Source: Xestospongia bergquistia
Taxonomy: Eukaryota > Porifera > Demospongiae > Haplosclerida > Petrosiidae
Direction of reading: 5' to 3'
DNA length: 64,000 nt
Assembly (NCBI GenBank): GCA_963965975.1
Contig: OZ014417.1
Span: forward strand, 7,002,821-7,066,820
The first letter of the stretch is position 1, and the number at the start of each line of letters is the position of its first letter. The notes below the pieces were generated by a model. It saw nothing but the letters and a program-made list of their open reading frames with translations, ran no database searches and was not told the DNA's origin. Below, in pieces: positions 4,123 through 64,000 of the stretch. Made by a program: the position numbers and the translations under genes.

Positions 4123-5830
4123 ATGATCTACAGTCTCTTCATTTTCCTTATTCTTCTTTTACCAGGAGGTAATGATTATAATTATAAGTTGTATATCCTT
4201 CTCAGTTTTAAAGATTCTGACTATTAGCACTTGCAAATGAAAGCAGCAACTTCTGTAACTCTAATAAAGTGGGAGCCCTCAAATATGAGTACTCAAACAG
4301 TCATATTCTACAAATCTGTACAGAAAATGGATGGCAATACATTTGTGCTAAACCTAACTCTACCTCTTGGAATGAAAATGAAGCTAGAGTAGCTTGTTAC
4401 GAAATGGGGATGTCATAGGAAGAAGGATCAGGTAGTTACTAATTCTAATTGTTACCTTACTTTCTACTTTGACATAGAATTAAGAATTAATGTCTCTAAT
4501 TCATTGAACATTTATAATAAAACCTTTGCCTGTTCAGGTGTAGAGGAAAGACTTATAAATTGTTCAGCTATTGATTATTACGATTGTTACTTTGGTCCAT
4601 ACTATTATGCAACAGTTCACTGTTTACCAGGTATATTCTATTATAAATGTTTGTTATTATTCTTCTTTTATAGCTGCTCCATCTTGTAAATCTGGAATTT
4701 TCACAGTAGAAGACAAAACTCGTAGAATCTGTCTTTTTGGTCAATGGTACACACTCTGTGGTAATAATCTCAGATATTGTCCAGTAAAACAGTACTCAGA
4801 CTGTGATAAATATTCATTAAAAGCAGGACTAATTTGTAAAGGTATTACTCAGCTCAATAATACAATACATTTAGTTTACTTCTATAGATAACACTCCTAA
4901 AAATCTACTGGTTCATTTACTAAACTCATCATCAGTACAAATACAATGGAATTATAATATGACAAATAACACAGCACATTTTAATGTTTATTGTACTACT
5001 ATAAAACACACAACAACAAAGCACAAGATATTCTAAGACAGTATTATATAATGATAACAATACTGTTAATACATCTATTACTGGTCTATTACCTAATACT
5101 ACATACACATGTTGTGTATTAACAGTAACATCATATGGAGAGAGTGAATCAGAATGTAAGAATATAACTACTAGACCTGCTAAAACTATTTCTAATGCTA
5201 AATGTAAGTATATGGTGTATATTACTATGTTCTGTTCATTTACACTAAATTTAATTCTGAACTTCTAACTAATGATTATATTTGTGATTTGTTTGCTATA
5301 CAGGTAGCATCTCTTCTGACATATCCAGTGTTATTGTTACAACTGTCAATACTATTACTATAACTAAGACTACTAATGCAACAGATAATTATACTATATA
5401 TGTGTGTATTGCTCATTTGATTATTTAATTGATAATTTTGTTATTTTTGTGTGTTTGTTGAAATAGGCATGACCTGTTCTCATACTAATGATAAAATAAC
5501 ATACATATACATATATACACATTACTGTGCATTGTTCATATGATAATTTAATTGATGATTTTGTTTCTTCTAATGACTGATATACAACTGTTATAGGATC
5601 ACCTGCTTTCATAACAGTTGCTACTCATGTTACCATATCTCCATCCTCTATTATTAATTCAATGTGTATACAAATGGCTCCTTCAATTGACTAGTACATG
5701 TACTTTACAAGTTAATGATACCAGTGGTTCATTCATTTATCAAGATGATCTTCAAATGGATGATGTATGCTCATTAGCTGATAATCAGCAGACTGAAGAA
5801 AGTCTATACAATCAACTCCAAAGAAACTGA
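4123..5830 (+). pseudogene. Subfamily II SRCR-FN3 receptor, broken
   Basis: Exons are recognisable in order: signal peptide 4123-4168 (MIYSLFIFLILLLPG), SRCR1 4228-4431 and 4478-4630, a shortened one-exon SRCR2 4674-4841, FN3 4888-5203, and linker 5304-5384. Damage: TGG to TAG in SRCR1 (MGMS*EEG); a two-base gain in the CAA run of FN3 that shifts the frame; a lost linker donor (ATAATT for GTAATT); and a deletion joining the linker (APSI) directly to the middle of the tail, which removes the TM and the NPxY part of the tail. The tail end (5700-5830) still reads CSLADNQQTEESLYNQLQRN. With a nonsense codon, a frameshift and no TM, it is very likely a pseudogene. Confidence 0.85.
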
Positions 5831-6459
5831 GCAGGGTCAAAAACGAGTCATACAAATTATAATTAAATATTAAATAAGTCAAATTACATTTGAAATTTTA
5901 TTTGGTTGATGTACCAAAGCAGTGCGCCAATAGTAACAAAAATGTGTGGATATATGAATGAAGAGTGGGTGGGTTGGTACATGTATAAATGGTAATTGAC
6001 AATAATAGAATACTATAAATGATTGATTATAGGTTAGAAATAACCTCACCTGAGGTTCTCAATGAATGTATATGTACATATACTATTAGTTATTTAACTA
6101 GGGTAGTTACCCTTTATGATTAGGGTAATAACAGTTTGTTTACAATGAATATATTTTGAATACAGATTGGTCAATCTACAAGTAAGATAATGAGATAAGG
6201 TAATTAACTGTAGACTATAGATTACAAATAATGATGTCATCATCATGTGACTTGTGACTTGTTGAACTAATAACAAAGTTATGTGTTACTGGACTAAATA
6301 TATACTATTGGCATTTCATCATATAACAGACTATATTGTAGTAACAGTTCAGTATCTAACTTAACAATCTTTACATTAAGATTTAGCTCTGTTACCAACC
6401 AATTACTAATAATAATTGCTTCATAATCTTGCTTATTGTACAATCTTGAACTAAATCAG
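5831..6459. other. 3' flank of the 4-kb receptor, then unassigned spacer
   Basis: 5840-6090 matches the 3' flanks after 39891, 45612 and 53943 (TACCAAAGCAGT, AGTAACAAAAATGTGTGGATA). From 6090 to 6459 no gene, repeat or recognisable RNFT exon was seen, although this is where the missing 5' RNFT exons would have to lie. Confidence 0.6.
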
Positions 6460-7740
<1,281 letters not shown>

Positions 7741-10258: not shown

Positions 10259-10335
<77 letters not shown>

Positions 10336-14129: not shown

Positions 14130-16156
14130 ATGATCTCTCGTCTATTATTATACTTTTTACTACTACTACTACTACAGGGAGGTAAGTAATTTTGTAAGGT
14201 TAATCTCTCAGTTTAACTTAATAGCACATCTAGTACCTGTAGATAGTAGTTGTAAGGAAGGAGAACTTAAACACAACTCCACAAATAGTAATATACTACA
14301 GATCTGTAGTGAAAGTGAGTGGAAGTATATTTGTGCTAAACCTAATCAATGGAGTGAAAATGAAGCTAGAGTAGCTTGTTATCAAATGGGAATGGTATGG
14401 GAAGAAGGTTCAGGTATTGTAGTTGTACTAATTTTCTTAATTAAAATGTTTATTCTCTACTCAGACATAGAATTAATAACTTGGAGTTATTTAGGAATAT
14501 TTTATTCAAAAAACCTTTCTTGTTCTGGATTAGAAGAAAAACTCATAAACTGTTCAATTGATGATTACGAAAATATCTGTTACTACTATGAAAATGGTTA
14601 TTACTATTATTATGCAACAGCTAAATGCATTGATGGTATACTATATCGCCAAACAATCTTGTGCATATATATATATATATATATGTATTTATAGGTAATC
14701 AGTCCTGTATATCTGGAAGTCTTTCATTAGTAGACAAAATTTTGAAAATCTGTGTATTTGGTCAATGGCACACACTCTGTGGTAATACTTGGACATTAGA
14801 TCAGGCAAAAGTAGCTTGTAGACAACTGGGAAGAAATTCAATTGGTATGATTATCAACATTTGAAACTAGTAATTGCTTTAAAAATAATGTTGTATAGGA
14901 GCTACAAGCACATTTGTATCTAGTGAAGAGTTCGTTTATTTTATTTGCAATAGTACTGAGAATGACTTTAGAAAATGCACAATATATAGTAACTCAAAAT
15001 GTGATATGAAGTCAAGTTTACTGAAACCAAGACTTACCTGTGGAGGTTTACTTTGACTATTTTAAACTTATGAAATGTATAATTCCCTTTTTTAGTTAGC
15101 CCTCCTAAGAATCTATTGACTCATTCACTGAACTTCTCAGTACAAATACAATGGAATTATAATATGACAAATGATGCTGTACGTTTTAATGCTTACTGTA
15201 CTACTATAAAACAACAACAAAGGATAAGATATTCTAAGACAATATTATATAATGATAACAATGCTGTTAATACATCTATTACTGGTCTATTACCTAATAC
15301 TACATACACATGTTGTGTATTAGCAGTAACATCATATGGAGAGAGTGAACCACTATGTCAAAATATCACTACTACTAATGTAACAAGTAAGTTTGCTGTA
15401 TATAAGTATGCGATATACATAGCACAGAATAAAATGACATGATTACTTAATGTAATAATCTTGTTCCCTAAAAGCAGTATATGTTACTAACATAATATAT
15501 ACATATATACATATATATAGTGTTATTATGACAATTTTCACTTACTGCTAAAATAACTCAGTTTACTAATCTAACAAATAAGTATACATTAAATTAGTAA
15601 GTATGCACAGTTCCTTTCTCCCAAATGATTATTTATTTTGAGTGATTTTGTTTTGTGTACAAATAACCTAGTCTCATATCATTGATATCATAGTATCCAG
15701 TGTCACCATCACAACTGGCACTCCTGTTAGCACATTTCAGTCCTGTGTTCCATGTACGTTTAATTTATCATGTATACAAACACCTCCTCCTATTGTAGGT
15801 AGTAGTACATCTACTAGTGGTGTTTTATGGCCATGGGTTGGTGGTATACTGGTGGGTGTGGTGAGTGGTGTTCCTGTGATGATCATAGTGTGTGTGATGA
15901 TGACAGTGGTTAGCAAGAAGAAATCAATAATTGATAGGAAAAGAAACAAAGAAAGGTTTTGTATGACCATTATTATTGAATGTTTGTCAGTTATATTTCT
16001 AGATCACATGATGATGGGCAACAACTAAACGTTAGAGGTCTTGATAATCCATCATATGAGCAAGCCATCATACAAAATACACAATCCAATGGTAACACTC
16101 AAGATTTCAATATTTCAGTTTCTGATAATCCAGCTTATGGTCCAATGTATAATTAA
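14130..16156 (+). CDS. SRCR-SRCR-FN3-TM receptor, subfamily I, with chimeric tail
   Basis: Predicted exons: 14130-14181 signal peptide (MISRLLLYFLLLLLLQG); 14234-14413 and 14471-14635 SRCR1; 14695-14844 and 14899-15045 SRCR2; 15096-15386 FN3; 15694-15955 linker/TM (GGILVGVVSG core, then KKKSIIDRKR); 16013-16156 tail. All join in frame with GT-AG introns. It is likely a single-pass surface receptor. SRCR2 has FGQWHTLCGNTWTL and AKVACRQLG, with a five-residue in-frame gap after SSEE. The tail starts as type A (RSHDDGQQLN, NPSYEQA) but after NGNTQD switches to the type B end (FNISVSDNPAYGPMYN), losing QYLIPV, YSLA and YNxL. Exons 2-6 are almost identical to the 18-kb gene. The intron 14414-14470 is 57 bases and stop-free. 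Confidence 0.88.
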
Positions 16157-18249: not shown

Positions 18250-20415
18250 ATGATTTCTTGTCTATTAATATACTTTTTGCTATTACTACTACTACAGGGA
18301 GGTAAGTAATTTGTAAGCTTAATCTCTCAGTTTAATTTAATAACACATCTAGTACTTGTAGATAGTAGTTGTAAGGAAGGAGAACTTAAACACAACTCCA
18401 CAAATAGTAATATAATACAGATCTGTAGTGAAAGTGAGTGGAAGTATATTTGTGCTAAACCTAATCAATGGAGTGAAAATGAAGCTAGAGTAGCTTGTTA
18501 TCAAATGGGAATGGTATGGGAAGAAGGTTCAGGTATTGTAGTTGTACTAATTTTCTTAATTAAAATGTTTATTCTCTACTCAGACATAGAATTAATAACT
18601 TGGAGTTATTTAGGAATATTTTATTCAAAAAACCTTTCTTGTTCTGGATTAGAAGAAAAACTCATAAACTGTTCAATTGATGATTACGAAAATATCTGTT
18701 ACTACTATGAAAATGGTTATTACTATTATTATGCAACAGCTAAATGCATTGATGGTATACTATATCGCCAAACAATCTTGTGCATATATATATATATATA
18801 TATGTATTTATAGGTAATCAGTCCTGTATATCTGGAAGTCTTTCATTAGTAGACAAAATTTTGAAAATCTGTGTATTTGGTCAATGGCACACACTCTGTG
18901 GTAATACTTGGACATTAGATCAGGCAAAAGTAGCTTGTAGACAACTGGGAAGAAATTCAATTGGTATGATTATCAACATTTGAAACTAGTAATTGCTTTA
19001 AAAATAATGTTGTATAGGAGCTACAAGCACATTTGTATCTAGTGAAGAGTTCGTTTATTTTATTTGCAATAGTACTGAGAATGACTTTAGAAAATGCACA
19101 ATATATAGTAACTCAAAATGTGATATGAAGTCAAGTTTACTGAAACCAAGACTTACCTGTGGAGGTATACTTTGACTATTTTAAACTTATGAAATGTATA
19201 ATTCCCTTTTTTAGTTAGCCCTCCTAAGAATCTATTGACTCATTCACTGAACTTCTCAGTACAAATACAATGGAATTATAATATGACAAATGATGCTGTA
19301 CGTTTTAATGTTTACTGTACTACTATAAAACAACAACAAAGGATAAGATATTCTAAGACATTATTATATAATGATAACAATGCTGTTAATATATCTATTA
19401 CTGGTCTATTACCTAATACTACATACACATGTTGTGTATTAGCAGTAACATCATATGGAGAGAGTGAACCACTATGTCAAAATATCACTACTACTAATGT
19501 AACAAGTAAGTTTGCTGTATATAAGTATGCGATATACATAGCACAGAACAAAATGACATGATTACTTAATGTAATAATCTTGTTCCCTAAAAGCAGTATA
19601 TGTTACTAACATAATATATACATATATACATATATATAGTGTTATTATGACAATTTTCACTTACTGCTAAAATAACTCAGTTTACTAATCTAACAAATAA
19701 GTATACATTAAATTAGTAAGTATGCACAGTTCCTTTCTCCCAAATGATTATTTATTTTGAGTGATTTTGTTTTGTGTACAAATAACTTAGTCTTATATCA
19801 TTGATATCATAGTATCCAGTGTCACCATCACAACTGGCACTCCTGCTAGCACATTTCAGTCCTGTGTTCCATGTACGTTTAATTTATCATGTATACAAAC
19901 ACCTCCTCCTATTGTAGGTAGTAGTACATCTACTAGTGGTGTTTTATGGCCATGGGTTGGTGGTACACTGGTGGGTGCAGTGAGTGGTGTTCCTGTGATG
20001 ATCATAGTGTGGGTGATAGTGACAGTGGTTAGCAAAAAGAAGTCAATAATTGATAGGAAAAGAAACAAAGAAAGGTTTGTATGACCATTATTATTGAATG
20101 TTTGTCAGTTATATTTCTAGATCACATGATGATGGGCAACAACTAAACATGGGACACCTTGATAATCCATCATATGACCAAGTCATCATACAAAATACAC
20201 AATCCAATGGTAACACTCAAGACGCAGAACTTCCTGAGGCTCAGTACTTAATTCCTGTAAATATAATGTCAAAAACAGTCACTAGTAATTCACAACTCAA
20301 TGATACCAGTGGTGATGTTCCTTATTTTATTTATCAAGATGATATTCAAACGGAAGGAATGTACTCATTAGCTAATAATGAACAAGTTAGAGAAAGTCTG
20401 TATAAAAGGAATTGA
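18250..20415 (+). CDS. SRCR-SRCR-FN3-TM receptor, subfamily I
   Basis: Exons: 18250-18301 signal peptide (MISCLLIYFLLLLLLQG); 18353-18532 and 18590-18754 SRCR1; 18814-18963 and 19018-19164 SRCR2; 19215-19505 FN3; 19813-20074 linker/TM; 20121-20415 tail. All are in frame. The ectodomain is nearly identical to the 14-kb gene at DNA level, introns included, but this copy keeps the full type A tail: NPSYDQV, AQYLIPV, YQDDIQ, MYSLA. The C-terminus is ESLYKRN, where relatives have ESLYNHLQRN, so the last YxxL motif has been lost by an in-frame deletion. The TM has GGTLVGAVSGVPVM followed by a KKK stop-transfer. The 57-base intron 18533-18589 is stop-free. Probably a surface receptor with phosphotyrosine docking sites. 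Confidence 0.9.
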
Positions 20416-21344: not shown

Positions 21345-22306
21345 CACTTGCAAATGGAAATAGCCACATTTGTAATTCTAATGAAGTGGGAGCCCTCAAA
21401 TATGACCACTCAAACAGTCATATTCTACAAATCTGTACAGGAATTCAATGGCAATACATATGTGCTACGTCTAACTCTACCTTTTGGAGTGAAAATGAAG
21501 CTAGAATGGCTTGTTATCAAATAGGAATGTCATGGGAAGAAGGGTCAGATAATACTAATTGAAATTATTAACTTACTTTGAGTTTCTTCTTTGATTTAGA
21601 ATTGAGAACTAATGCCTCTAATTCATTGAACAATTATAATAAAACCTTTGCCTGTTCAGGTGTAGAAGAAAGACTTATAGATTGTTTAGCTAATGAATAT
21701 TATGATTGTTACTTTGGTTTGTACTATTATGCAACAGTTCACTGTATTCCAAGTATATTCTATTATAAATAATTGTTATTATTATTCATTAAAAGTTACT
21801 CCATCTTGTAAATCTGGGAATTTCACAGTAGAAGACAAAACTTGTAGAATCTGTCTTTTTGGTCAATGGTACATACTCAGTGATAATAATCTCAGATATT
21901 GTCCAGTAAAACAGTACTCATGCTATGATAAATATTTATTAAAAGCAGGACTAATTTGTAAAGGTATTACTCAGCTCAATAATACAATACAGTTAGTTTA
22001 CTTCTATAGATAACACTCCTAAAAATCTACTGGTTCATTTACTAAACTCATCATCATCAGTACAAATACAATGTAATTATAATATGACAAATAACACAGT
22101 ACATTTTAATGTTTACTGTACTACTATAAAACAACAACAAAGCATAAGATATTCTAAGACAGTATTATATAATGATAACAATACTATTAATACACTATTA
22201 CTGGTCTATTACCTAATACTACATACACATGCTGTGTGTTAACAAGTAACATCATATGGAGGGAGTGAACCAGTATGTAAGAATATAACTATTACTACTG
22301 CAACAA
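21345..22306 (+). pseudogene. Subfamily II SRCR-FN3 receptor, broken
   Basis: Exons: SRCR1 21345-21548 and 21600-21752; shortened SRCR2 21796-21963; FN3 22010-22306. Damage: the signal exon is deleted except ATGATCTCC; the SRCR1 donor is lost (TCAGATAATA for TCAGGTAGTT); a cysteine in the short SRCR2 is replaced (ILSDNN for TLCGNN); and a one-base loss in FN3 (AATACACTATT for AATACATCTATT) shifts the frame. The FN3 tryptophan is also cysteine (QIQCNYN). No TM or tail exon follows; the unit runs into a spacer fragment at about 22370. It is very probably dead. Confidence 0.85.
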
Positions 22307-22447
22307 GTGAGTGTATTTTATATTGTTTATACTAGAATGAGCTATTGATATATTTATTATTTTAATGTAATGTAATATAATTGATGTTTATATTAGAACT
22401 AACAATAACTTGAGGTTGATTCTGTCATGTATAGTTTACTTATTTAG

Positions 22448-22860
22448 TGAACCCTCCTAAGAATCTATTGACTCATTTCCTGAACTTCTCAGTGTATATA
22501 CAATGGAATTATAATATGACAAATGATACACTAAATTTTAATGTTTACTGTACTACTATAAAACAACAACAAAGCACAAGATATTCTAAAACAGTATTAT
22601 ATAATGATAACAATACTGTTAATACATCTATTACTGGTCTATTACCTAATACTACATACACATGTTGTGTATTAGCAGTAACATCATATGGAGAGAGTGA
22701 AGAAATGACAGAATATCACTACCAGTAATTATGAAAGTAAATTTTATGATATAATTAAGTACTGTGTTCCTCTTTGTCAGGTACTGTTACTCATTGTGGT
22801 AACACCTCATCTTTTACTAATGATATACTATGAATTTGTTGTTTATTTGTGGATATGGTA
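22448..22860 (+). pseudogene. Orphan FN3 with hydrophobic last exon
   Basis: A complete FN3 exon from 22448 (VNPPKNLLTHFLNFS) runs open to a stop at 22728 after GESEEMTEYHYQ. It is preceded by a spacer fragment (GATGTTTATATTAGAACTAA) rather than SRCR exons. After TTTGTCAG (22780) a hydrophobic frame reads VLLLIVVTPHLLLMIYY. The same ending occurs at 17325, 29356 and 39089. Probably a recombination remnant. Confidence 0.6.
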
Positions 22861-43658: not shown

Positions 43659-45612
43659 ATGATATTTCTCTGTCTACTCATTTATCTGCTGCCAGAAGGT
43701 ATAGTCATTGAAAATTACATATTCCAGTTTGGATATTCATATTTATATATAACTGTTAGTACTAGCAAAGAATAGCTCTAATGATGGAGATCTTAGATTC
43801 AATCCATTAAACAGTCGTATACTACAGATCTGTACTGAAAACAAATGGAGTGACATTTGTGCTAAACCAGGCTCTAATCAATGGGGTAAAAATGAAGCTA
43901 GAGTGGCTTGTTATCAAATGGGAATGGTATGGAAAGAAGGATCAGGTATTAACTGTTTTGGTATTAAAATTAATTCTCTTCTTCTACACTGACATAGAAT
44001 TGAAAGTTACGGGCCCATCATATCAAACTTATTTAGTGTTTTTTAAAAATTTTTCATGCTCTGGCACAGAAGAGAAACTTATAAATTGCTCAACTATCCA
44101 TGTTGAAAAGAATGAGATTTCCAGTTATGATTGCTTCTATCAACCAACTGTTTACTACTATGCAACAATAGACTGCATCCCAGGTATATATTGCATTAAA
44201 CCAAAATACTCCTAATGTTTGTAATAATATTTTAACTAGCTAGTTGTAAACCTGGAAATCTATCCCTGGAAAACAAAGTTCTAAAAATCTGTGAATTTGA
44301 ACAATGGCATACACTCTGTGGTAATACTTGGACATTAGCTCAGGCAAAAGTAGCTTGTAGACAACTGGGAAGAAATCCAATTGGTATGATGGTTAACAAG
44401 TAGTCTCACCAAATAAAAAGGCATTGCATAGTATATGGTAATCTTTTGCAATCTACTTTAGGAGCTAAATATATACTTGTTTCTGATAAAGAATCTAGTC
44501 CTGTGGTTAGCACTTACTATAAATGTAATGGAAGAGAAAACAGTTTTGAACAATGCCTAGAGAATCAATTTTCAGACTGTGATAAAACTTCCTTAAAGGC
44601 AGGACTTATTTGTGGAGGTATAACAAAATACTGAGTAATAGCTATATTTCATTGTCTTATATATAGAAAGCCCTTCTAGGAATATACTCATTGATATATT
44701 AAATTTATCATCAGTACAAATACAATGGGAGTACAATATGACAAATGATACAGTACATTTTAATATTTACTGTACTACTATAAAACAACAACAACAACAA
44801 CAGCAGCAACAATACACAAGATTTTCTAAGACAGTATCATATAATGATAACAATACTGTTAATACATCTATTATTGGTCTATTACCTAATACTACATACA
44901 CATGTTGTGTATTAACAGTAACATCATATGGAGAGAGTGAACCAGTATGTCAAAATATCACTACTAGTAATGTAACAAGTGAGTGTATTTATCATAATTA
45001 TAAGTGTATTAGAACAGAACAAATTTATATATCTATTGTAGTGTAAAAATCTTAATTAATCCAACAAGTACATCATTATGTACTGTTCATTTTTTTAAAA
45101 TGATTGTTTACTTAATAATGTTTGGATGATCTTACTCTGTTTACACAGGTAGTAGTGGTACATCTACTAGTGGTGGTCAATGGATTGGTGGTATACTGGT
45201 GGGTGTGGTAAGTGGTGTTCTTGTGGTGGTGACAGTGTGGGTGATAGTGACAATAGTTAGGAAAAAAAAGATTGATACAAAAAATATTGAAGATAGGTAA
45301 TATAAGGATAATTCTATAGTAATACATTTTGTGGACATTTTCAGATCACATGATGATAGTCAACAACAAAACATGGGAACCCTCAGTAATCCTACATACG
45401 AACAAAACAACATTTCAAGTACCCAATCCAACAGTAATTATCAAAGCAAGGACCCTATTGAGACTCCATACTCAATTCCTATTAAAGTCAAGTTTAATAC
45501 ATCGACTAATACATGTACTTTACAAGTTAATGATACCAGTGATGTTGTTCCTTCATTCATTTATCAAGATGATCTTCAAAAGGAAGGAGTATGCTCATTA
45601 GCTGATGATTAG
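43659..45612 (+). CDS. SRCR-SRCR-FN3-TM receptor, subfamily III, poly-Q FN3, short tail
   Basis: Exons: 43659-43698 signal peptide (MIFLCLLIYLLPE); 43760-43945 and 43998-44183 SRCR1; 44240-44383 and 44462-44617 SRCR2; 44667-44978 FN3; 45149-45296 TM (GGILVGVVSGVLVVVTVW); 45345-45612 tail. All join in frame. The first SRCR1 cysteine is serine (AKNSSNDG for ANNCSNDG). The FN3 CAA run is expanded to about nine glutamines. The linker is very short (SSSGTSTSGG). The tail has NPTYEQN and TPYSIPI, but YSLA is CSLA, and a TAG follows LADD where relatives have CAG, so the terminal YNQL is absent. Readable as a complete gene whose two last tyrosine sites are gone. Confidence 0.87.
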
Positions 45613-46369
45613 CAGACTGAAGAAAGTCTGTACAATCAGCTCCAAAAAACGAGTCAAGTAGATAATGTTTGTGTATTTTTTTCTTATATAATAGTTCTGT
45701 ATGTGCTTTGATAAAATACTTGTGCATTAAAACTAATTTTGTAATTTTTTGTGCATGTAGTATTTGGATGGTCTACCAAAGCAGTACCACAATAGTAACG
45801 AAAATGTGTGAATAGATGAATGGAAGAGGAAGTGGGTTGGTGCATGTATAAATGATAACTGAAAATAATAGAATACTATAAATGGCTAATTGTAGGTTAG
45901 AAACTTGATGTTCTCAATGAATATATACGTAGTTAATATTGCTTATGTCGTTATAATACTTTCCTAAATTATGGCTCATGCTTGTAGTGACATTTCAAGG
46001 CAAACAATGAGGCACTGCAATGTATTGTTAGACTAGGATAAAGTAAGTAAAGTTTATTTGAGTGGGTATATTATTTCTATTATAGCTAATATTGTGTGCA
46101 TAATCTACCCTATACCTGTCATGTCTGTCTAACATCATTTATTAAAATATATCATCATTGCCTTTAAATATTCCTTCCTTAAACATAGCTTCCTCTCACA
46201 GTGATACAAGTAATAACATCCTGTTATGTTTTAAAATTATCAAGACCAATAAGAACGTATCTATCAAACATTTCATAAGTTTAATTTTAACTTTCATACT
46301 ATACTTCAGAAACTGAAAACAACAACAACAATAGAGTAATGTGTATTCTAATATAGTATTAGAAAACAA
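45613..46369. other. Spacer
   Basis: Remaining out-of-use tail end (to about 45650) and the common 3' flank (TACCAAAGCAGTACCACAATAG). No gene seen. Confidence 0.6.
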
Positions 46370-48572: not shown

Positions 48573-50475
48573 ATGTTTCTCTGTCTACTAATTTATCTGC
48601 TGCCAGAAGGTATAGTCATTGGAAATTACTTTGCAGTTATGGACATTTATATTTACATATAACTCTTAGTACTGGCAAACAATTGCTCTAATGATGGAGA
48701 TCTTAGATTTAGTCCATCAAACAGTCGTATATTACAGATCTGTACTCAAGACAAATGGAGTGACATTTGTGCTAATCCAGGCTCTAATCAATGGAGTGAA
48801 AATGAAGCTAGAGTGGCTTGTTATCAAATGGGAATGGTATGGAAAGAAGGATCAGGTATTAACTGTTTTTTATAAATGGAATTTATATTATATTTTATAT
48901 AGAATTGAAAGTTACGAAACCTTTTTCATATCAAGAGTATTTACCGTCAATTGAAAATTTTTCTTGCACTGGTATAGAAGAGAAACTCATAGAGTGCTCA
49001 ACAATCCCGGCTAGGGATAATTATGATTGCATCTATAAGCCTGGAAAATATAGCTATGCAACCATAGACTGCAGTATCCCTGGTATATACAATATCCCAA
49101 TAATATTTTAAATATACTAAGATTTATAGATACTTGTAAATTTGGAAGTATCTCATTAGAAGATAATATTTTAAAGATCTGTGTATTTGGTCAATGGCAC
49201 ACACTCTGTGGTAATACTTGGACATTAGCTCAGGCAAAAGTAACTTGTAGACAACTGGGAAGAAATCCAATTGGTATCATTATTATCATTATAATTGTAA
49301 TTATTATTTGAAAATTATTAGGAGCTAGAAACACATCTATTTCTAGTAATGGTTCGACTCCAGTACTCAATGCTTACTTCAAATGCAATGGAACAGAAAG
49401 AAATCTCAAATATTGTCTAGTGAGCCAGTTGTCTGATTGCTATACGAATTTATCAGTAGCAGGACTTACTTGTGGAGGTACATTCTAAGTGCCCAATTAA
49501 TTTTTAACTCACTATTATAGAGAACCCTTCCATAAATCTAATGGTTCAATCAGTGGACACATCATCAGTAAACATACTTTTGGAATATAATATGATAGAT
49601 GGCACAAGTCATTTTAATATTAACTGTACTACTATGAAACAACAACAACACCAGCAAGGCAGTTATTGTTATTCTAAGACAGTATTATATAATGATAACA
49701 ATACTGCTAATATATCTATTACTGGTCTATTACCTAATACTACATACACATGTTGTGTATTAGCAGTAACATTATACAGAGACAGTGAACCAGTATGTCG
49801 AAATATCACTACTGCTATTGATAAAGTAACAAGTGAGTATACTAATTTTTTTGTACTGTCCTTGTCTCTCAAAGCTATGATCATATTTTACACAGATGTG
49901 ACCTGCTCTCATATTACTGATATAGTAGTGTCAACTGTTCTCATCAAAACTGTTACTCCTGTTATAATATCTCAGTCTTGTACTTTCAGTTCAACATGTA
50001 TTCAAACACCTATTATGAGTAGTGACATGTTTCTTAGTGGTGGTCCATGGGCAGCTGGTGGTATAATGGTGGGTGTGGTGAGTGGTGTTTTTATTATGGT
50101 GATGATATGGGGATTAGTAACAGTGATTAAGAAAAAGAGAAGAAATACTTATACGAAAAGACATGATGAAAGGTAATTTCTTTACAATTCTTTTATTTAT
50201 TAAACACTTTTAGATCACATGATGAGTACCAGCTAAACATGGCAGCCCTTGAAAATCCCACATATGAGCAAACTATCATCCAAAGTACACAATCCAAAAG
50301 TACTTATCAAGGCACAGATCTTCCTGAAGACCAGTACTTAATTCCTGTTAATATAAAGTCAAAAACAATGACTAGTAATTCGCAAGTCAATAATTCCAGT
50401 GATGACGTTTCTTCTTTTGTTTATCAAGATGATGTTCAAATGGAAGGAGTATATTCATTACCTGATGATCAGTAG
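48573..50475 (+). CDS. SRCR-SRCR-FN3-TM receptor, subfamily III, truncated tail end
   Basis: Exons: 48573-48609 signal peptide (MFLCLLIYLLPE); 48670-48855 and 48903-49082 SRCR1; 49130-49273 and 49322-49477 SRCR2; 49521-49832 FN3; 49896-50172 linker/TM; 50214-50475 tail. All in frame. FN3 is unusual: NILLEYNM replaces the QIQWNYNM core, and QQQHQQGSYCYSK follows. The TM reads GGIMVGVVSGVFIMVMIW, then KKKRR. The tail has HDEYQLN, NPTYEQT, DQYLIPV and VYSLPDDQ, then a TAG (CAG elsewhere) so that the LYNQLQRN end, still visible after the stop, is not translated. The 63-base FN3/TM intron (49833-49895) has no stop in frame. Probably a working receptor. Confidence 0.9.
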
Positions 50476-51490: not shown

Positions 51491-53943
51491 ATGATCTTTT
51501 GTCTATTGATATACATTTTCCTTCTTTTATCAGGAGGTATAAATAATTATCAATATAATATATTTTATGCTACTACTTTTAGTTAACAGTTGTTCTGATG
51601 AGGGAGCCCTTAAGTACAAGCCCCCAGACAGTCATATATTACAAATCTGCATTGGAGGTCAATGGAGTTACATTTGTGCTAAACCAGGGCACAATCAATG
51701 GGGTGAAAATGAAGCTAGAGTGGCTTGTTATCAAATGGGAATGTCATGGCAAGAACAATCAGGTATTAAAATTTGTTTGATGCACTGAATAATTTGCCTT
51801 CTGTATTCTGGAATAGTTGTGAGCACTACTACTAGCCATTACCATGAAGTGAAGTTGAAAAATATTACTTGCTTTGGTGTAGAAGAAAAAGTCATAAATT
51901 GTTCAATCATCCCTGCTCATGAAATTTATAACTGCTTCTATAACCTCAAAGAATATCATTATGCCAGTGCTCACTGTATTTCAGGTACTCTTTTCAAAGT
52001 TGTGTCTACAGTCCAGGCAGAAAAGTGAACACTTCACACGTTAGACCTAACTCTCAAATTTTGTATTAAAGTATGGCTTTTTTCTGCCAGGACTCTCATA
52101 CTTTCAATATGCATTAATAATGGTACTACTATTATTATTATAGCTAAGATGTCTTGTCAGTCTGGAAGTCTCTTACTAGAAAATAAATTTCTAAAGATCT
52201 GTGCATTTGGTCAATGGCGCACACTCTGTGGCGATACTTGGACTTTGGCTCAGGTTAAAGTAGCTTGTAGACAACTGGGAAGAAATCCTATTGGTATGGT
52301 CTTTAAAATCATGAATATTACATTATTTGGATTAATTAGGAGCTAAAACTAGCTTTGTTTCTAGTAAAGACCCAACTCCATTACTTAGTACCTACTTTCA
52401 CTGTAAAGGAATTGAGAATAATTTCAGATTATGTCCAGTAAAACAGTTCTCCAACTGTGATGTTACTTCATTGAAAGCAGGCCTTATTTGTGGAGGTATG
52501 TAATCTTTACCATTTCAACACATTCATCAAGTTACATCTGTAGAGAGTCCTCCTAAAAATCTACTGGTTCATTCACTAGACTCATCATCAGTACAAATAC
52601 AATGCAATTATAATATGACAAGAGACACAGTAAATTTCAATGTTTACTGTACTACTATAAAACAACAACAACAAAACACAAGATATTCTAAGACAGTATT
52701 ATATAATGATAACAATATTGTTAATACATTTATTACTGGTCTATTACCTAATACTACATACACATGTTGTGTATTAACAGTAACATCATATGGAGAGAGT
52801 GAACCAGTATGTGAAAATATCACTACTAGACCTGCTAAAACTATTTCTAATGCTAAATGTAAGTAGATGCTATATATTACTATATACTGTTCATTTACAT
52901 TAAGTTTATTTCTGAACTTCTAACTAACGATTATATTTGTGATTTGTTTGCTATACAGGTAGTATGTGTTCTGACATATCCAATGTTGTTGTGACAACTG
53001 TCAATACTATTACCATATTAACTAAGACTACTAATGCAACAGGTAATTATACTATACATAATATTTATTGCTCATTTGATTATTTAATTGATAATTTTGT
53101 TATTTTTGTGTGTTTGATCTCATATTACTGATGCAATAATATCGACTGTTTTCATAACAACTAGTACTCCTGAAGCCATTACTCCTGTTACATTAACTAA
53201 TTCTACTTATACAACAGGCAATTTTACTATATATATATATATATATATACATACATATATACACATTACTGTGCATTGTTCATATGATAATTTAATTGAT
53301 GAGTTTGTTTCTTCTCATATGACTGATATACAATTGTATTGGGATCACCTGCTTTCTTTACAGCTGCTACTTATGTTACCATATCTCCATCCTCTATTAT
53401 TAATTCAATGTGTATACAAATGGCTCCTTCAATTGTAAGTAGTGATGCATTTACTATTGGTGGTCCATGGGCAGCAGGTGGTATATTGGTGGGTGTGGTG
53501 AGTGGTGTTTTTGTGATGGTGATGATATGGGTTACAGTAACAGTGGTCAGGAAAAAGAAGACTGGTACAAAAAGTAAAGAAGATAGGTAATCTATGTATA
53601 ATTCCATGGTGATATATTTGTGGACTTTTTCAGATCGAATAATGATGAGCATCAACTAAACATAGAAACTGTTGGTAATCCTACATATGGACAAAATAAC
53701 ATGCAAAGTACACAATCCAACAGTAACTCTCAAGGCACACACCTTCCTGAGGCTCAGTACTTAATTCCTATTAAAGTCAAGTCTAATACATTGACTAATA
53801 CATGTACTTTACAAGTTAATGATACCAGTGGTGGTGTTCCTTATTTCATTTATCAAGATGATCTTCAAATGGAAGGAGTATACTCATTAGCTGATGATCG
53901 GCAGACTGAAGAAAGTCCGTACAATCAACTCCAAAGAAACTGA
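51491..53943 (+). CDS. SRCR-SRCR-FN3-TM receptor with complete tyrosine tail
   Basis: Exons: 51491-51536 signal peptide (MIFCLLIYIFLLLSG); 51583-51762 and 51817-51984 SRCR1 (eight cysteines); 52144-52293 and 52340-52495 SRCR2 (eight cysteines); 52544-52858 FN3; 52959-53042 linker; 53364-53586 linker/TM (GGILVGVVSGVFVMVMIW, then KKK); 53634-53943 tail. All in frame. The tail is the reference form for type A: NPTYGQN, AQYLIPI, VYSLADDRQTEESPYNQLQRN spaced as two tyrosine motifs 16 residues apart. The FN3 core tryptophan is cysteine (QIQCNYN). A possible extra linker exon at about 53120-53217 lacks a good acceptor and ends at GC instead of GT, so I leave it out. The least damaged member in the window. 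Confidence 0.92.
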
Positions 53944-54772
53944 GCAGGATCAAAAACGATTCATGCAAATTATATTTAAATATTTTATTTTTCACATAAT
54001 TATAATAGTTCTGTTGTGTTCATGTTTTGATACAATACTACAGTATTATGTCTAATTATACAAACTTTTTTGTGTAGTATTGATTGGTGTACTATAGCAG
54101 TACCACAATAGTAACAAAAAATGTGTGGATAGATGAATGAAGAGTGGGTGGATTGGATGTATGGATGAATAGTTATTGACAATAATAGAATACTATAAAT
54201 GGCTGAGTGTAGGTTAGATCCCTTAATGAATATATATGCAGTCAATGTAGTTTATGTCTTTATAATACCTCACAAAATTACAGCTCATGCAGCTTGTTGA
54301 CATGACATTGTCGATAATGAGGCACTGCACAATATTGTGAGTCTATGATAAATAAGAGACCAAGTTATTTAAATGGGTACATGATAGTTCCATTATAGCT
54401 AATATTGTGTATATAGTATTTAATCTACCCTTCCTTTTGGATCCGTCTAACAACATAATAACTTTATCTTACATACACAATATGTACCTCCCTCCATCTC
54501 AATAGTTCCTATTTCAATATGTCTTATCAATATCCAATTGATAAAATCAACAACATAATATATGTATTTATATAACATAGAACACTACTTATGTATGGCT
54601 TTGAATCAACTGAGTTGTTGACTGATAATCCCATATGTACACAATGGGTTAATATTTAGTAATTGCTTTTTATATAGGAGTCCTACCTATACATTTATAT
54701 ACTGTGACTAGTGTATACTGAGACTACAGTTGATAACGTATATAGAGATAGAAGTTAAAAACAAAGATTATA
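53944..54772. other. Spacer before the 54.8-kb receptor
   Basis: Common 3' flank (ACCACAATAGTAACAAAAAATGTG) followed by subfamily III upstream text with ACTGTGACTAGTGTATACTGAGACTAC near 54702-54728. No gene seen. Confidence 0.6.
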
Positions 54773-56591
54773 ATGTTTGTCTGTCTACTAATTTATCTGC
54801 TGTCAGAAGGTATAGTCATTGAAAATTACTTTGTAGTTATGGATATTCATGTAAATATTGTATAAACTTAGTGCTGGCAAACAATTGCTCTAATGATTGA
54901 GATCTTAGATTCAGTCCATCAAACAGTCGTATATTACAGATCTGTACTCAAGACAAATGGAGTGACATTTGTGCTAAACCAGGTTCTAATCAATGGAGTG
55001 AAAATGAAGCTAGAGTGGCTTGTTATCAAATGGGAATGGTATGGAAAGAAGGATCAGGTATTAACTCTTTCATATAAAAGGAATTTATATTATACTTTAT
55101 ATAGAATTGAATATTACAGGCCCTTCATATGGTACTTATTTAGTGTCATTTAAAAACTTTTCTTGCACTGGTATAGAAGGGAAACTCATAGAATGCTCAA
55201 CAATTCCTGCTGGTATTAATTATGACTGCATCTATGAGCTTGGAAAATATAGCTATGCAACAATAAACTGTGTCCCTGGTATATATACTATCCTGTTAAT
55301 CTTTTAATACTAAGATTTATAGGTACTTGTAAGTTTGGAAGTATCTCATTAGAAGATAATATTTTAAAGATCTGTGTATTTGGTCAATGGCACACACTCT
55401 GTGGTAATACTTGGACATTAGCTCAGGCAAAAGTAACTTGTAGACAACTGGGAAGAAATGCAATTGGTATTATTATTATCATTATAATTGTAATTATTAT
55501 TTGAAAATTATTAGGAGCTAGAAACACATCTATTTCTAGTAATGGTTCGACTCCAGTACTCAATGCTTACTTCAAATGCAATGGAACAGAAAGAAATCTC
55601 AAATATTGTCCAGTGAGACAGTTGTCTGATTGCTATATGAATTCTTCAGTAGCAGGACTTACTTGTGGAGGTACATTCTAAGTGCCCAATTAATTTTTAA
55701 CTCACTATTATAGAGAACCTTTCCATAAATCTAATGGTTCAATTGTTAGATACATCATCAGTAAACATACTTTTGGACACTAATATGAAAGATGACACAG
55801 GACATTTTAATGTTTACTGTAATACTTTAAAACAACAACAACAACACCAGCAAGCCAGTTATTGTTATTCTAAGACAGTATTATCTAATGGTAACAATAC
55901 TATTAATACATCTATTACTGGTCTATTACCTAATACTACATACACATGTTGTGTATTAGCAGAAACATCATATGGAGTGAGTGAACCTGTATGTCAAAAT
56001 ATCACTATAACTACATATAATACTACTGTCACTACAGTTACTGTACCTCCTCATAATACTACTTTCACTACTGTTATTATAAATCAAACACCTCTTTGTA
56101 TGACTAAAAACAGCACATTTGCCAGTGCTATTATTCCATGGATAGGTGGCATACTGGTGGGTGTAGTGAGTGGTATCCTTGTGATGGTGATAGTGTGGGG
56201 ATTGTGACAATAATTGGGAAAAAGAAGACAAAAGCTGATATGAAAAAACGGTATTTCATTTGCAATTTTTTATTGTGCTTCATATTCTTATAGATCACAT
56301 GATAGTCCAGTAAACATTGGAGTCCTCGATAATCCCACATATGAGCAAACTATTATACAAAGTACACAATCCAACAGTACGTATCAAGGCACAAATCTTC
56401 CTGAAGACCAGTACTTAATTCCTGTTAATATAAAGTCAAAAACAATGACTAGTAATTCACAAGTCAATGATACCAGTGGTGATGTTCATTCTTTTATTTA
56501 TCAAGACGACATTCAAATGGAAGTTGTATACTCATTACCTGATGGTGAGCAGACTGGAGAAGGTCTGTACAATCAATTACAAAGGAATTGA
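54773..56591 (+). pseudogene. SRCR-SRCR-FN3-TM receptor, subfamily III, two lesions, FN3/TM exon fused
   Basis: Exons: signal 54773-54809 (MFVCLLIYLLSE); SRCR1 54872-55057 and 55105-55278; SRCR2 55323-55466 and 55515-55670; FN3, linker and TM in one exon 55714-56250; tail 56294-56591. Only two lesions: GGA to TGA in SRCR1 (NCSND*DLRF, at 54898-54900) and a one-base loss after the TM (TGGGGATTGTGAC), giving IVWGL then stop at 56207. Everything else is open, including a tail with NPTYEQT, DQYLIPV, VYSLPDGEQ and LYNQLQRN. The intron that separates FN3 from the TM exon in all relatives is absent; Thr-rich text (TTVTVPPHNTTFTTV) fills the gap. Recently dead, or affected by sequence errors. Confidence 0.85.
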
Positions 56592-59245: not shown

Positions 59246-61577
59246 ATGAATCTTGAAGTTGATTTTATTCTACTGTGCTCAGTATGTTGCTTACAACAAG
59301 GTAACAAAAGTATTAACATGTTGTAATAATTAAAACTTTTGAACAGTTATCACTGGATGTGTTGAGGGAGAACCCTGTCAAGGAAATTGTCTTACATCAC
59401 CATTTTGTACTGAAACATATGTTTGCACTGAGAATGTCTGTCATTTAAGTAAGAGGGAATCAGAGCTGCTCATTAATGATGTTATTATATAGCTAATCTA
59501 AATTCAAATAATGGCAAAATAAATACACATTCATACATTGTCCATCTAAATTTACATTATGAGTATAACTCTACAAGTAGCCAAAAGAGTGGCCTCATAC
59601 TCATATTGCTAGTGCAAGGCTATCAAAAGGTTGTAATAAATAATTTTTATAGCTATCTTCCTATAGAATGTAAATGTGGAGACTTAATGTTAATAAATGA
59701 ATCAGTTCTTGCTATATGTTCATCAAATGGTGAATGGTACCCAATCTCTGGTCATCATTGGACATTAACAGAGGCAAAAGTAGCTTGTAGACAACTTGGA
59801 AAAAATCCAATTGGTATGAATAATTACACAAGAATACAAAATTATTAAAATTAATTAAAACAAAAGGTGCTGAAAACATTACACTAATATTAGACCAAGA
59901 TACATGCTGGTCTAATCAATGTAATGTTCAATTCTGTTGTAACGGGAGTGAGAGTTTTCTCAGAGATTGTTTGATATATTATATCGAAGATTATCAGATG
60001 AAGGCAGGACTCAAGTGTGGAGGTATGTTATTTATGTTATAATAATAATTAAATACCAATATAGATTGGCCCAGTCCATACAATTTATCTATACAACGAC
60101 TGGAATCTTCAATACAGCTCAACTGGAAATACAACGTCAAACGCACAACTAACATGGTACTAATGTTTATAATATCATGTGAATGTAAACAACAGCAGAT
60201 CAGCCATGTTTATTCTAAGATAATACTATATAATAATGACAGTACTTTTAATACATCTATTTCTGGTCTATTACCTAATACTACATACAACTGTTGTGTA
60301 TTAGCAGTAACATCAAATGGAAAGAGTGGACCAATATGTGAAAATATCAATATAACTGGTAATACAACAAGTGAGTTTATTCTTGTTACAACTACTATAT
60401 TAATCTATAATGATACTTTGTTATTTATTTTTCTTATCAGGTCAAATTTGTTCTTCTACTACTGTGACAGATGTATTCACTACTAGTGTCATCAAAACAA
60501 CTTCTACAACAGTTACAATCATGACAACTGTTACTTCTCTTATTATACCTCCATCCTCTAATATCAATACAAAAACACATTGTCCTACTGGTAGTATGAC
60601 AATTGTTACTTTTAATACCGTATCTCCATCCAGTACTATCAATACAATAAAAACACATTGTCCTAATGGGAGTGGTGATACATTTACTAATGGTAGTTCA
60701 TGGGTGGGTGGTATATTGGTGGGTGTGGTAATTGGTGTTCTTGTGATGGTGATGGTATGGGCAATAGTGACAATAGTTAGGAAGAAGAGGAGGAAAATGG
60801 TGGACAACATAATAACATACAATAATAGGTATGTTCAGAATTATGTTTTGTATGTATGTAATTTACAAGGACAAGTTATATGTACAAAGAATGCATACTT
60901 TATGTTAATAATTAGACATAATATTTACTTTGCTACATACGTTGCTATTTCATTAAAAATATGAACTTTCAGTAACTTTTTAAAGCACTAATGTAATAAG
61001 TTGACTGCTACAGCTGCACTAACAAGTTTAATGTGTATATAAATAACCACAATGCTACAAACCTCATATTAGCTATTGTCATGTATACAATGTCATTATC
61101 ACTGACTATACATTATAGTATGGCTATGGTATCATTATATCTGTGTTATTTTTAAATGCAATCCAAAAACAAGCCACCACAGTAGTAATATACAGTATAT
61201 AAACATGTATGAAATACACACACACACACACACATATACACATCATTATGTTAAGCATTTATATGATATTTTTATTTAAAATTAATAGTTCCACTTCACA
61301 AACATCAAACACAGAAGGTTTAGGTAACCCTACATATGATGGACTTGTACATCCTATTACCAATATGGAGCTGCCTGAAGCTGAGGCTACATATAGTTAT
61401 TCTGTAATGCCACAGACTCACAAATATGATACCGTAACTAATATCACTGAGGAAAGACCAAGGGTAAACCAAGATATTCCCATTAACACTGGTATATACT
61501 CTCCTGCTGAAAATATCGAAATTGAAGGAGTAGCTGAAGATGAAATTGGTACATATTCAAAGCTCCAGAGAAAATAA
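59246..61577 (+). CDS. Divergent receptor: Cys-rich N-terminal module, SRCR, FN3, TM, tyrosine tail
   Basis: Exons: 59246-59300 signal peptide (MNLEVDFILLCSVCCLQQ); 59347-59448 cysteine-rich (GCVEGEPCQGNC, then FCTETYVCTENVC); 59493-59813, an unknown segment of about 60 residues (NTHSYIVHLNLHYEYN, SGLILILLVQGYQK) running directly into an SRCR first half (WTLTEAKVACRQLGKNPIG); 59867-60022 SRCR second half; 60065-60370 FN3; 60441-60828 linker/TM; 61289-61577 tail. All phases fit. The linker holds two similar repeats around HCPTGS and HCPNGS. The tail has NPTYDGL, TYSYSV, KYDTV, IYSPA and C-terminal TYSKLQRK, with no long conserved text from other tails. SRCR1 is replaced by the Cys-rich module. 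Gene model good; the N-terminal module is unidentified. Confidence 0.82.
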
Positions 61578-62757
61578 TTTTATAATATATAGTCTATTAA
61601 TTCTGTCATTGTATTAACACGTTTTACTATTACAAGTTATAAGTAAATTATTAAATGAGCAATTGTATTCAATTAGTTTTGTAATTAGTTTAATTTTATT
61701 ATTACAGTCACAATATTGATAATAATAGAAGCAAAATAAATCTAATCATTTAGAACAGAAATAAATTATAGGTATTTAGTGTGTATAGAGATAAGAAAAC
61801 AATTAATTGACATTGGTTATTATTGTGCATGTAAAGAATTTCGAACTATGTGCCTTTTTGATTAATAAATTAGTTAGCTAGGTGTGTCTTAAACTTCATA
61901 ATTCATTAGCATTTATTAGATGTTTTGGGAAAGGAGGAAGTATTGTTTAAGACTATTTTAGAGTGCAATCTAATGTAGATATATTCTGTTCCTGAATCTC
62001 ACCTGTGTCAGAAACAGAACAACAATATTTGTGAAGACTTATACATGCATGAAACTAGATGTTGACTTGTATCATGTCCATAGCAATAGTAACACAACAT
62101 ATATACATAATTTGGTTTATATAGTTGCCTCTGTTGAACGAGACTTCAGTTTGTACTAGCATTACAGTCCATGTATGCAGGTAAATTCATTTTGAGAATT
62201 AATTACAAACCTTACTTTCATATGTAATGCACTGTACCAACGGACAGTATCGTGTTCTCAGCTTTAACTTAACAGAAAGCATATCATAAATAACAAAATA
62301 AATAGACCAAAGTACAATAGACAAAGTAAGGTAACCACATAACAAAGAAGTGCAAAGTAAATATGACAAGATCTAATTAACACACATACACTACTTAACA
62401 AGTCATTCAGTAAGACAAATACTGATTACCAGAACATTCAGTAGGACAATCAACAAGGTGAAGTGTTGAGTGAACTCTGTTACACATACATCACTGGTAT
62501 ATCTATTTATATCACAACATTAAAACAAAAAAAGAGTAAATAAAGACAGTCCTTTCGAGAGTGTTTTGTAGTTTCAACTATATCACAGTTATGAGTTGTC
62601 ATTGTGAAAAAAAAACATCTTGATATATTAAATGAAGCTGTTACCATATTGTTATATAACCATGATGTAACCATGAAGTATGCAGAATGACAACAGGAAA
62701 TGGACAATATCATTAGATTAGATTAGGAAAAGAGCAGAATTTGTTCAAGTCTTCAAG
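61578..62757. other. Spacer, no gene seen
   Basis: AT-rich, no family text recognised. A (CA)n run lies just upstream in the last intron of the preceding gene (61216-61233). Confidence 0.5.
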
Positions 62758-64000
62758 ATGTATCTTCACTATGTCTTTATTTTACTATGTTGTCTAAAAA
62801 AAAGTATGGAAACTAATTGATTTTCCAAAGCTCTTAAATGCTTTATGATCTAGTTACTGGATGTGTTGAGGGAGAGCTCAGATTTGAGTCAAACAGCAGC
62901 TCTCTAATACAGATTTGTGCTAAAGGACAATGGGGATATATTTGTGCTAATTATTATTACCAATGGAGTGAGGAAGAAGCCCAAGTTGCTTGTCAACTGA
63001 TGGGATATCAAAGTTTTAAAAAATTAGTTAGAGGTAAGAAACAAATGCATTTATGTTAAGATAACAAGATCAATTATAATATACTGATTTCAATTTAGGT
63101 GACTATAGAGTAAGAGATGCAGAAAAAAAAATAGTCAGTTATTCACATATCAAGTGCAAGGGTCTTGAACAACAAGTTACTCAATGTTATCTTAGAGAAA
63201 GTAATAATAAAAATGATTGCAAAAATGGTAATAATGGTAATTACTACTATGCTGCTACCATATGCCAAACTAGTTCTGGTAATACAAAGCTTTATAACTA
63301 AAATAATGACAAAACGGACTGTCTTCTTTAGGTTGTAAAGGTGGAAAATTATCCCTTAATGGAACACTACTTACAATTTGTGCATTTGGTCAATGGCACA
63401 CACTCTGTGGTAATACTTGGACATTAGGTCAGGCAAAAGTGGCTTGTAGGCAACTTGGAAGAAATCCTATTGGTATGATTCTTTGTATACATAATATGTT
63501 TATTTCTCAATAAAAACAAGGTGCTAACAACAGTATAATTGATGTTGCATTCTCTGCTGTTGATATTCAGTTCTATTGCAGTGGAAATGAGAATTCTCTT
63601 AGGAAATGCTCAGTGATTAATAATTATAAGTGTAGCTCACCAGGGAAAGCAGCAGAGCTTACATGTGGAGGTAGACAACTATAATTATGTAATAAAATTT
63701 ATGAAGTATATTAGAATGGCCCAGTCCACCTCACAATTTATCCATTCAATTACTGGAATCTTCAATACATATCTACTGGGAATATAATTATAGCAATCAC
63801 ATGATAAATGTTATCACTTTCAATGTATCCTGTAAAAACAGTGTACAACAAATTAAATACTGGTATTTCAATAACAGTACTTTTAATACATCTATTACTG
63901 GTCTATTACCTAATACTACATACACATGTTGTGTATTAACAGTAACATCATATAGAGAGAGTGAACCAGTATGTCAAAATATCACTACTACTAATTTAAA
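62758..64000 (+). CDS. SRCR-SRCR-FN3 receptor, divergent, cut by window end
   Basis: Exons: 62758-62803 signal peptide (MYLHYVFILLCCLKK); 62854-63033 and 63099-63278 SRCR1; 63332-63472 and 63521-63670 SRCR2; FN3 from 63715 to the window edge. All in frame. SRCR1 starts TGCVEGELRF, which is also how the Cys-rich exon of the 59-kb gene starts, so the two are sisters. SRCR1 second half is unusual (Asn/Lys-rich before NYYYAATIC). FN3 begins EWPSPPHNLS, has IYWEYNY in the core, and ends with the family-wide GLLPNTTYTCCVL text. TM and tail are outside the window. Confidence 0.85.

Follow-up and report, generated by a model that had tools for sequence, protein, structure and literature searches.

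A tandem array of SRCR-FN3 receptor genes with tyrosine-bearing tails and a homogenised FN3 exon end in the sponge Xestospongia bergquistia

The stretch of 64,000 nucleotides analysed here (the window) comes from the sponge Xestospongia bergquistia and covers positions 7,002,821-7,066,820 of contig OZ014417.1, called C7 below. It lies within a tandem array of genes that are predicted from their sequences to encode single-pass surface receptors, with two SRCR domains and an FN3 domain outside the cell and a PTB-type site plus further tyrosine sites inside. What is new in this array is that the FN3 exon ends in an island of some 130 bp that is homogenised across gene classes, relics included. 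Moreover, the part comprising the transmembrane (TM) segment and the tail has been swapped occasionally between ectodomains, and the SRCR domains and tail of the least damaged members show mild purifying selection. As a tentative explanation, to which we give slightly less than an even chance, the array may encode recognition or uptake receptors that work like CED-1 and Draper and whose diversity arose through duplication, conversion and the exchange of tails, while many copies decayed.

Extent and architecture of the array

Copies were mapped by tblastn with the exon peptides of one unit, g7, in a genome of 146.46 Mb (21 contigs), and gene models were obtained with a purpose-written spliced aligner. 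FN3 and SRCR matches span at least 141 kb (C7:6,964,194-7,105,688), which is a lower bound because the downstream limit lies near the end of the examined DNA. The array thus fills the window and runs past both of its ends, whereas the first-pass annotation of the window had confined it to 4123..64000. Every unit has the same head-to-tail orientation on the forward strand, and the shared exon order is signal peptide, SRCR1 (two exons), SRCR2 (two exons), FN3 (one exon), stalk/TM and tail (one exon). The DNA is AT-rich and the introns are tiny, mostly about 40-65 bp and of phase 1; the intron after FN3 is longer and the last one is of phase 2.

Pfam recognised SRCR (PF00530) in two stretches of all three spliced proteins that were searched (62.2-82.6 bits; cut-off 26.1), and fn3 with 24.4, 25.9 and 32.2 bits, so that two of the three pass the cut-off of 25. 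In g7, eight cysteines per SRCR domain were counted by eye, and the closest solved structures are SRCR domains of CD163. Genome-wide, at least 163 SRCR matches were found (150 of 4312 candidates scored). Furthermore, a small satellite of the array is located on the reverse strand of the same contig, near C7:3.07 Mb. The window itself contains 16 units (g0 to g15, listed below): SRCR1 was matched in 14 of them, g0/u12 has its SRCR1 a short way upstream of the window, and in g14 SRCR2 was the only SRCR domain found. In addition, there are about ten groups of relic exons; the first-pass annotation had given at least 15 genes and about as many relics.

An island of silent-site uniformity

The silent-site divergence (dS) between classes, calculated for seven class A and five class C genes, was 0.053 in the 3' half of the FN3 exon (FN3-C). 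Most other ectodomain parts are saturated, with 1.48, 1.36, 1.23 and 1.33 in S1a, S1b, S2b and FN3-N, respectively; the remaining values are 0.39 for S2a, 0.55 for stalk/TM and 0.97 for the tail. For g5, g7, g11 and g12 compared with the downstream units c3 and c9, FN3-C dS was 0.056; the stretch is less uniform in c1, c5 and c6 (0.14-0.18). Between the class A subgroups, sliding dS drops to about 0.03 over the last 48 FN3 codons, and the first full window in the exon that follows has 0.74; shallower dips occur at the ends of S1a (0.11) and S2a (0.13). Two stretches of g7 illustrate the pattern:

31706..31834, forward strand: FN3-C island, g7 copy, with near-uniform silent sites across the array
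31171..31285, forward strand: SRCR2 core of g7, a second low-dS island, identified by blastn and dS

When g7 was compared by blastn with c2, c3, c8 and c9, 119-129 bp aligned at the FN3-C island with 96-97% identity; elsewhere, the alignments comprised only the second island copy of g7, the SRCR2 core and, in c3 and c9, short stalk/TM pieces. The SRCR2 core is 89-92% identical to the same four units and has a dS of 0.15 between A and C. In five chosen pairs, the difference between the island and the rest of the gene (SRCR2 core excluded from the rest) gave Fisher p values of 9.6e-09 to 2.3e-12. There are 54 blastn matches to the island in 166 kb, some of them partial, and 27 lie in the window. 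Relics whose upstream half is decayed or missing still hold the island at about 82-96%.

Since dead copies are uniform as well and silent change is no higher than amino-acid change, gene conversion accounts for the island better than protein constraint does, and we consider it very probable that repeated conversion keeps the island uniform. It might instead be held by a function at the DNA or RNA level, for instance as a regulatory or splicing element, which would fit the low numbers of both silent and amino-acid changes. However, two FN3-C stretches showed no sign of RNA folding (z +1.08 and +0.81), which also led us to reject RNA structure as the cause; moreover, amino-acid divergence in the island exceeds silent divergence, and dead copies that lack the remainder of the gene contain the island as well. 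A DNA- or RNA-level function is thus improbable. The island was rejected as a genome-wide repeat, because all of the at least 41 matches (40 of 59 candidates scored) lie on C7, in the array or its satellite. A four-gamete test gave 0.19-0.36 in all modules and is uninformative for FN3-C, which offers only 8 sites.

In g7, the FN3 end is also duplicated in tandem: the duplication is 174 bp long (window 31682-32017), with the second copy reaching to about 32014, and forms one open frame. The duplicated piece may be spliced out or may add half an FN3 domain.

Tyrosine motifs in the tails

Three tail types, A, B and C, can be distinguished. Tail A contains LDNPSYEQ, QYLIPV, YSLA and SLYNHLQRN, tail C contains GNPTY, YSYAV, IYS, VYSLA and TYSKLQRK, and tail B is a TM exon ending in NPAYGPMYN. 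Genome matches to the long tails A and C are confined to the array and the satellite on the same contig, and those to tail B are confined to the array, except for two weak ones (E 0.07) on other contigs. The tail of g7 has all four A motifs:

32638..32928, forward strand: tail A exon of g7, with LDNPSYEQ, QYSIPA, IYSLA and SLYNHLQRN

Fourteen A tails were aligned, those of g1, g2, g8 and u05 being left out as partial, hybrid or shifted. The tyrosine is present in 14 of these at NPxY (the full NPxY in 12), in 13 at QYxIP, in 10 at YSLA and in 12 at the last motif. The first-pass annotation had not separated the tail types. The seven C-type tails (six C and one from the satellite) all have the first and the last tyrosine; the third is found in four and the full NPxY in five. 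Hence, the first tail tyrosine (hydrophobic-x-x-x-x-Tyr, mostly NPxY) is present in all 21 tails that were aligned (14 of type A, six of type C and the one from the satellite), and the residue at -5 of this site, as read from the alignment, is L or V in every one of them. The last motif reads Y-x-x-L in g7, g12, g13 and most C tails and is lost or altered in the others; g3, for instance, is without its NxL. The tail of g2 begins as tail A and continues, in frame, with the end of tail B, which results in two NPxY sites.

Two distant downstream members outside the homogenised set (L042:2834-3880 and L042:6378-6941) have long tyrosine-rich tails in frames of 348 and 187 amino acids. By eye, these open frames contain NPNY/NPTY, YxxP, VYDxV and VYSxV.

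Exchange of tails between ectodomains

Several pairs are similar in the ectodomain and divergent in the TM segment and tail. The ectodomain dS is 0.105 for c3-c4, 0.107 for c3-c9 and 0.138 for g11-g13, and the corresponding TM and tail values are 0.807, 0.401 and 0.327. The pair g10-g12 represents the reverse case (0.641 and 0.258). Upstream of the window, u02 and u06 bear tail B and the close ectodomains of u03 and u07 bear tail A. As u02, u03, u06, g10 and g13 are broken, these pairs are a record of past exchange. The island sits between the exchanged parts, from which we infer that it may be the cause of the exchange: repeated conversion would hold the island uniform, and exchange around it would give related ectodomains different tails. 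It is doubtful, yet conceivable, that the FN3 exon end is a maintained recombination hinge, which would keep ectodomains and tails interchangeable, so that the germline array keeps making new combinations of receptor and output that are read by tandem SHP-type phosphatases.

Vertebrate paired immune receptors such as KIR and CD300 also form tandem arrays, in which similar ectodomains are combined with different tails and members undergo exchange. If the sponge genes worked in this way, near-identical ectodomains with different tails would send opposing signals, and SHP-type phosphatases would read the ITIM-like last motif. The array shares the tandem arrangement, the exchange and, in u02/u03, u06/u07 and c3/c4, the common ectodomains with differing TM segments and tails. 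In g7, g12 and a few other members, inspection by eye showed the ITIM spacing S-x-Y-x-x-L, and tandem SH2-SH2-PTP genes exist in the genome (see below). However, no two open genes with a common ectodomain and different tails were found, as every tail-B gene (u02, u06, g9 and u12) is broken in the models; the strict ITIM spacing is missing from most other tail copies, which have another spacing. In addition, inspection by eye of g7, its orphan TMb exon and c1 revealed no ITAM in the tails and no charge in the TM helices, and the ectodomains are of another kind. The array could possibly work like a paired receptor, yet we regard this explanation as improbable, and the analogy drawn in the first-pass annotation has turned out to be weak.

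Candidate tail readers in the genome

The genome contains 81 SH2 and 6 PTB (PID) matches. Two SH2 domains and a PTP domain occur in line at eight places (six at C3:1.265-1.284 Mb, one at C3:0.917 Mb and one at C7:8.318 Mb):

C3:1265457-1283528, reverse strand: SH2-SH2-PTP tandem set, six places, one frame split by a stop
C3:916188-917681, forward strand: SH2-SH2-PTP, one place
C7:8318067-8319560, reverse strand: SH2-SH2-PTP, one place

Seven of the eight places are single open frames of 521-629 amino acids. Pfam identified two of the frames, one on C3 among them, as SH2-SH2-PTP, and the solved structure closest to the C3 phosphatase frame is PTPN11. Because these are single open frames in a genome with many small introns, the sequences suggest that SHP-type phosphatase genes were retrocopied and amplified; no SHP expansion in sponges was found in the literature searched. 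A link between the receptors and the SHP-type phosphatases is offered as a suggestion. A ninth SH2/PTP set (C6:0.2 Mb) breaks between its pieces. A cluster of SH2 matches with open frames of about 400-500 amino acids is located at C6:1622265-1697212 on the reverse strand.

State of the units

The units of the window and their associated exons, all on the forward strand, are as follows:

1..3208 (+): g0/u12, 3' part, starting upstream at C7:7002180; SRCR2, FN3, TMb piece, damaged TMa and tail A; one frameshift, a missing TM piece and loss of the YSLA tyrosine
4272..5827 (+): g1, broken, SRCR2 shortened; five stops and five frameshifts in the model
14130..16156 (+): g2, hybrid tail A/B, near-open; frame kept only by shifting both splice sites
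18250..20415 (+): g3, tail A with shortened last motif, near-open; usual TM-exon acceptor lost, as in g2
21389..22729 (+): g4, broken; one stop, one frameshift, without TM or tail
23852..26093 (+): g5, near-open; a frameshift near the tail end alters the last residues, otherwise open
26977..28671 (+): g6, broken, SRCR2 shortened; one stop, five frameshifts
30556..32931 (+): g7, fully open with ordinary splice sites
33260..33711 (+): orphan FN3 end and TMb exon (tail B, NPAYGPMYN) downstream of g7, tblastn match
34476..36681 (+): g8, recent copy of g7, broken; three frameshifts
37013..37464 (+): orphan FN3 end and TMb exon downstream of g8, tblastn match
40934..42563 (+): g9, tail B, broken; three frameshifts
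43644..45651 (+): g10, broken; two stops, two frameshifts
48573..50475 (+): g11, near-open; a stop 12 codons short of where the aligned tail ends, last motif lost; start codon by eye
51491..53943 (+): g12, near-open; a stop in the stalk stretch, avoidable by a candidate exon; start codon by eye
54755..56588 (+): g13, broken; one stop, one frameshift
59489..61577 (+): g14 (c1), class C, tail C, unclassed; first SRCR without a reliable match
62760..64000 (+): g15 (c2), class C, cut by the window end; frameshift in the tail beyond the window

The 16 units thus comprise one open gene (g7), five near-open genes (g2, g3, g5, g11 and g12), nine broken or fragmentary units (g0/u12, g1, g4, g6, g8, g9, g10, g13 and g15) and the unclassed g14. 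The first-pass annotation was right about the architecture and the head-to-tail order, and it overstated the intactness of the array. The models of g2 and g3 have neither stop nor frameshift; nevertheless, their TM exon has lost its usual acceptor, and the frame is preserved only if donor and acceptor are both shifted. Upstream, the model of u07 is likewise without stop or frameshift, but GG stands where the TM exon usually has its acceptor; u06 retains a frameshift. Downstream, c3 and c9 are open except for the TM-tail junction, and a similar mismatch is found in c1, c4 and c7; the models may have missed a splice in class C.

Some further observations concern the surroundings of these units. 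About 8 kb of the window (5900-14100) contain two FN3-end fragments only and are without an open frame of at least 100 amino acids. A 116-residue open frame in the stalk region of g0/u12 (window 1991-2341) resembles a BED-type zinc finger by eye; the guess that it encodes a transposase was dropped, as it had no Pfam match at 0.01. The adjacent class C units c6 and c7 (C7:7081446-7086126) are nearly identical, owing either to a recent duplication or to an assembly duplicate. Upstream of the array, an open frame on the reverse strand (L033:755-1627) contains a DTTGSMSEE stretch and has, by eye, the look of a von Willebrand A domain.

Selection and decay

The ratio of amino-acid to silent divergence (omega) was first determined for the genes then taken as open (g2, g3, g5, g7, g11, g12 and u07, with u06, c3 and c9 added in the FN3-C test), and the seven genes gave 0.59 for the SRCR domains, 0.62 for the tail and 0.82 for stalk/TM. 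The analysis was redone on g5, g7, g11 and g12 after the loss of the TM-exon acceptor in g2, g3 and u07 and the frameshift in u06 had been recognised, with the same outcome: in six pairs, omega was 0.56 (0.43-0.72) for the SRCR domains, 0.53 (0.34-0.83) for the tail and 0.74 (0.54-1.04) for stalk/TM, the intervals being indicative because gene pairs share ancestry. This pattern speaks for a function in some members. There was no sign of diversifying selection on the SRCR domains of these four genes (omega below 1). Neither did the data establish positive selection in FN3-C: among the ten genes then taken as open, the distinct changes numbered 36.5 at the amino-acid level and 5.5 at silent sites (p 0.06), the excess of amino-acid changes relative to other copies had a p of 0.20, and the omega of 3.57 (confidence interval 1.02-12.26) in g5, g7, g11 and g12 is based on very few silent changes. 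The idea that the orphan TMb exons are selected alternative last exons found no support either, with omega at 0.85 (0.54-1.43) for all copies and 0.96 (0.35-4.27) for the orphans.

These values bear on two further explanations. The array might be a mostly decaying one, in which duplication and conversion make and break copies and little function exists beyond one or a few members. Indeed, 9 of the 16 window units are broken and 5 more have a defect or doubtful splicing, the ectodomain omega of the damaged A4 group is 0.92, and relics share in the homogenised island. However, omega is clearly below 1 in the SRCR domains and tail of the least damaged genes, the first tail tyrosine is kept even between classes with a tail dS near 1, and long tyrosine tails, as judged by eye, also occur in the more distant downstream members. 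We therefore rate mere decay as unlikely, although it deserves consideration. Alternatively, the array could be a histocompatibility-like locus for self or kin recognition (allorecognition). An expanded, locus-restricted receptor array with exchange between members would suit such a role, but omega is below 1 in the SRCR domains, and allorecognition appears quite improbable.

Comparison with known systems and proposed mechanism

Expansions of SRCR genes in sponges have been reported for Amphimedon queenslandica (PMC10855680), Stylissa carteri and Xestospongia testudinaria (PMC4772301), Halichondria panicea (PMC8242945), and Aplysina aerophoba and Dysidea avara (PMC6208332). Such expansions comprise hundreds of SRCR genes; A. 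queenslandica, for instance, has 296, of which 158 are in tandem arrays (PMC10855680). The combination of SRCR with fibronectin III is also in print (PMC10855680; PMC8242945; PMC6208332; PMC4772301). As far as the accessible portions of these papers go, the expansions share with the present array the many SRCR genes, the tandem arrangement and the SRCR-FN3 combination, whereas the set of tyrosine tails, the exchange of tails and the silent-site island are not described in them; the word 'tyrosine' has 0 occurrences in the accessible text of PMC10855680. The literature searched held no description of this locus or of tyrosine-tailed SRCR pairs in sponges. The array is thus a variant of the already known sponge SRCR-FN3 expansion, with new tail and island features. 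Fibronectin and SRCR modules reportedly also occur together in the multiadhesive protein of Geodia cydonium, which differs from the array in its complement-control module.

By analogy, the logic of the tails would be most like that of the engulfment receptors CED-1, Draper and MEGF10. According to the accessible part of PMC8092387, these are single-pass receptors whose tails combine NPxY with YxxL, ITAM or ITIM sites, and Draper has tail variants and the SHP-type eraser Corkscrew. The array tails likewise have NPxY and YxxL. The ectodomains differ, being composed of EMI and EGF-like domains in the engulfment receptors (PMC8092387) and of SRCR and FN3 in the array, and no homology is claimed; Pfam detected neither EMI nor EGF in the three spliced array proteins. 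In the proposed mechanism, the ligands bound by the SRCR domains would be microbial, particulate or self, PTB adaptors would be recruited to the NPxY site for uptake, and the distal YNxL/YSKL would act as a YxxL site (for SH2 or AP-2) or as an ITIM-like site. Together, these three properties would make the receptor work like CED-1, Draper or MEGF10.

Several observations weigh against this proposal. Only one of the 16 window units is open with ordinary splicing, the YSLA tyrosine is missing in 4 of the 14 A tails, and the gene models failed to resolve the TM-tail junction of class C. Moreover, ectodomain and tail dS run roughly in step in most class A pairs, and exchange must therefore have been occasional. 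Finally, groups A1 and A5, broken members included, have omega values of 0.65 and 0.70, so that the contrast with A4 is not clean. That the genes encode docking receptors of some kind is nevertheless probable, and for a role in uptake or microbe recognition we would put the chance a little below even; both estimates were slightly lowered in view of the shifted splice sites that g2 and g3 require and of the finding that none of the tail-B genes is open. In this respect, the earlier proposal of locus-expanded receptors with docking-type tyrosine tails is supported by the invariant first tyrosine, the omega values of the SRCR domains and tail, and the presence of SH2 and PTB matches.

Significance

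Sponge SRCR expansions have been counted before; the present array bears on how such receptors may signal and diversify. Tails with a conserved PTB-type site, which have been swapped between ectodomains and lie beside a coding island very probably kept uniform by conversion, make it testable whether pair-like modular receptors arose outside the vertebrate clusters. Furthermore, the locus makes it testable how a probable intragenic conversion hot spot shapes a receptor array.

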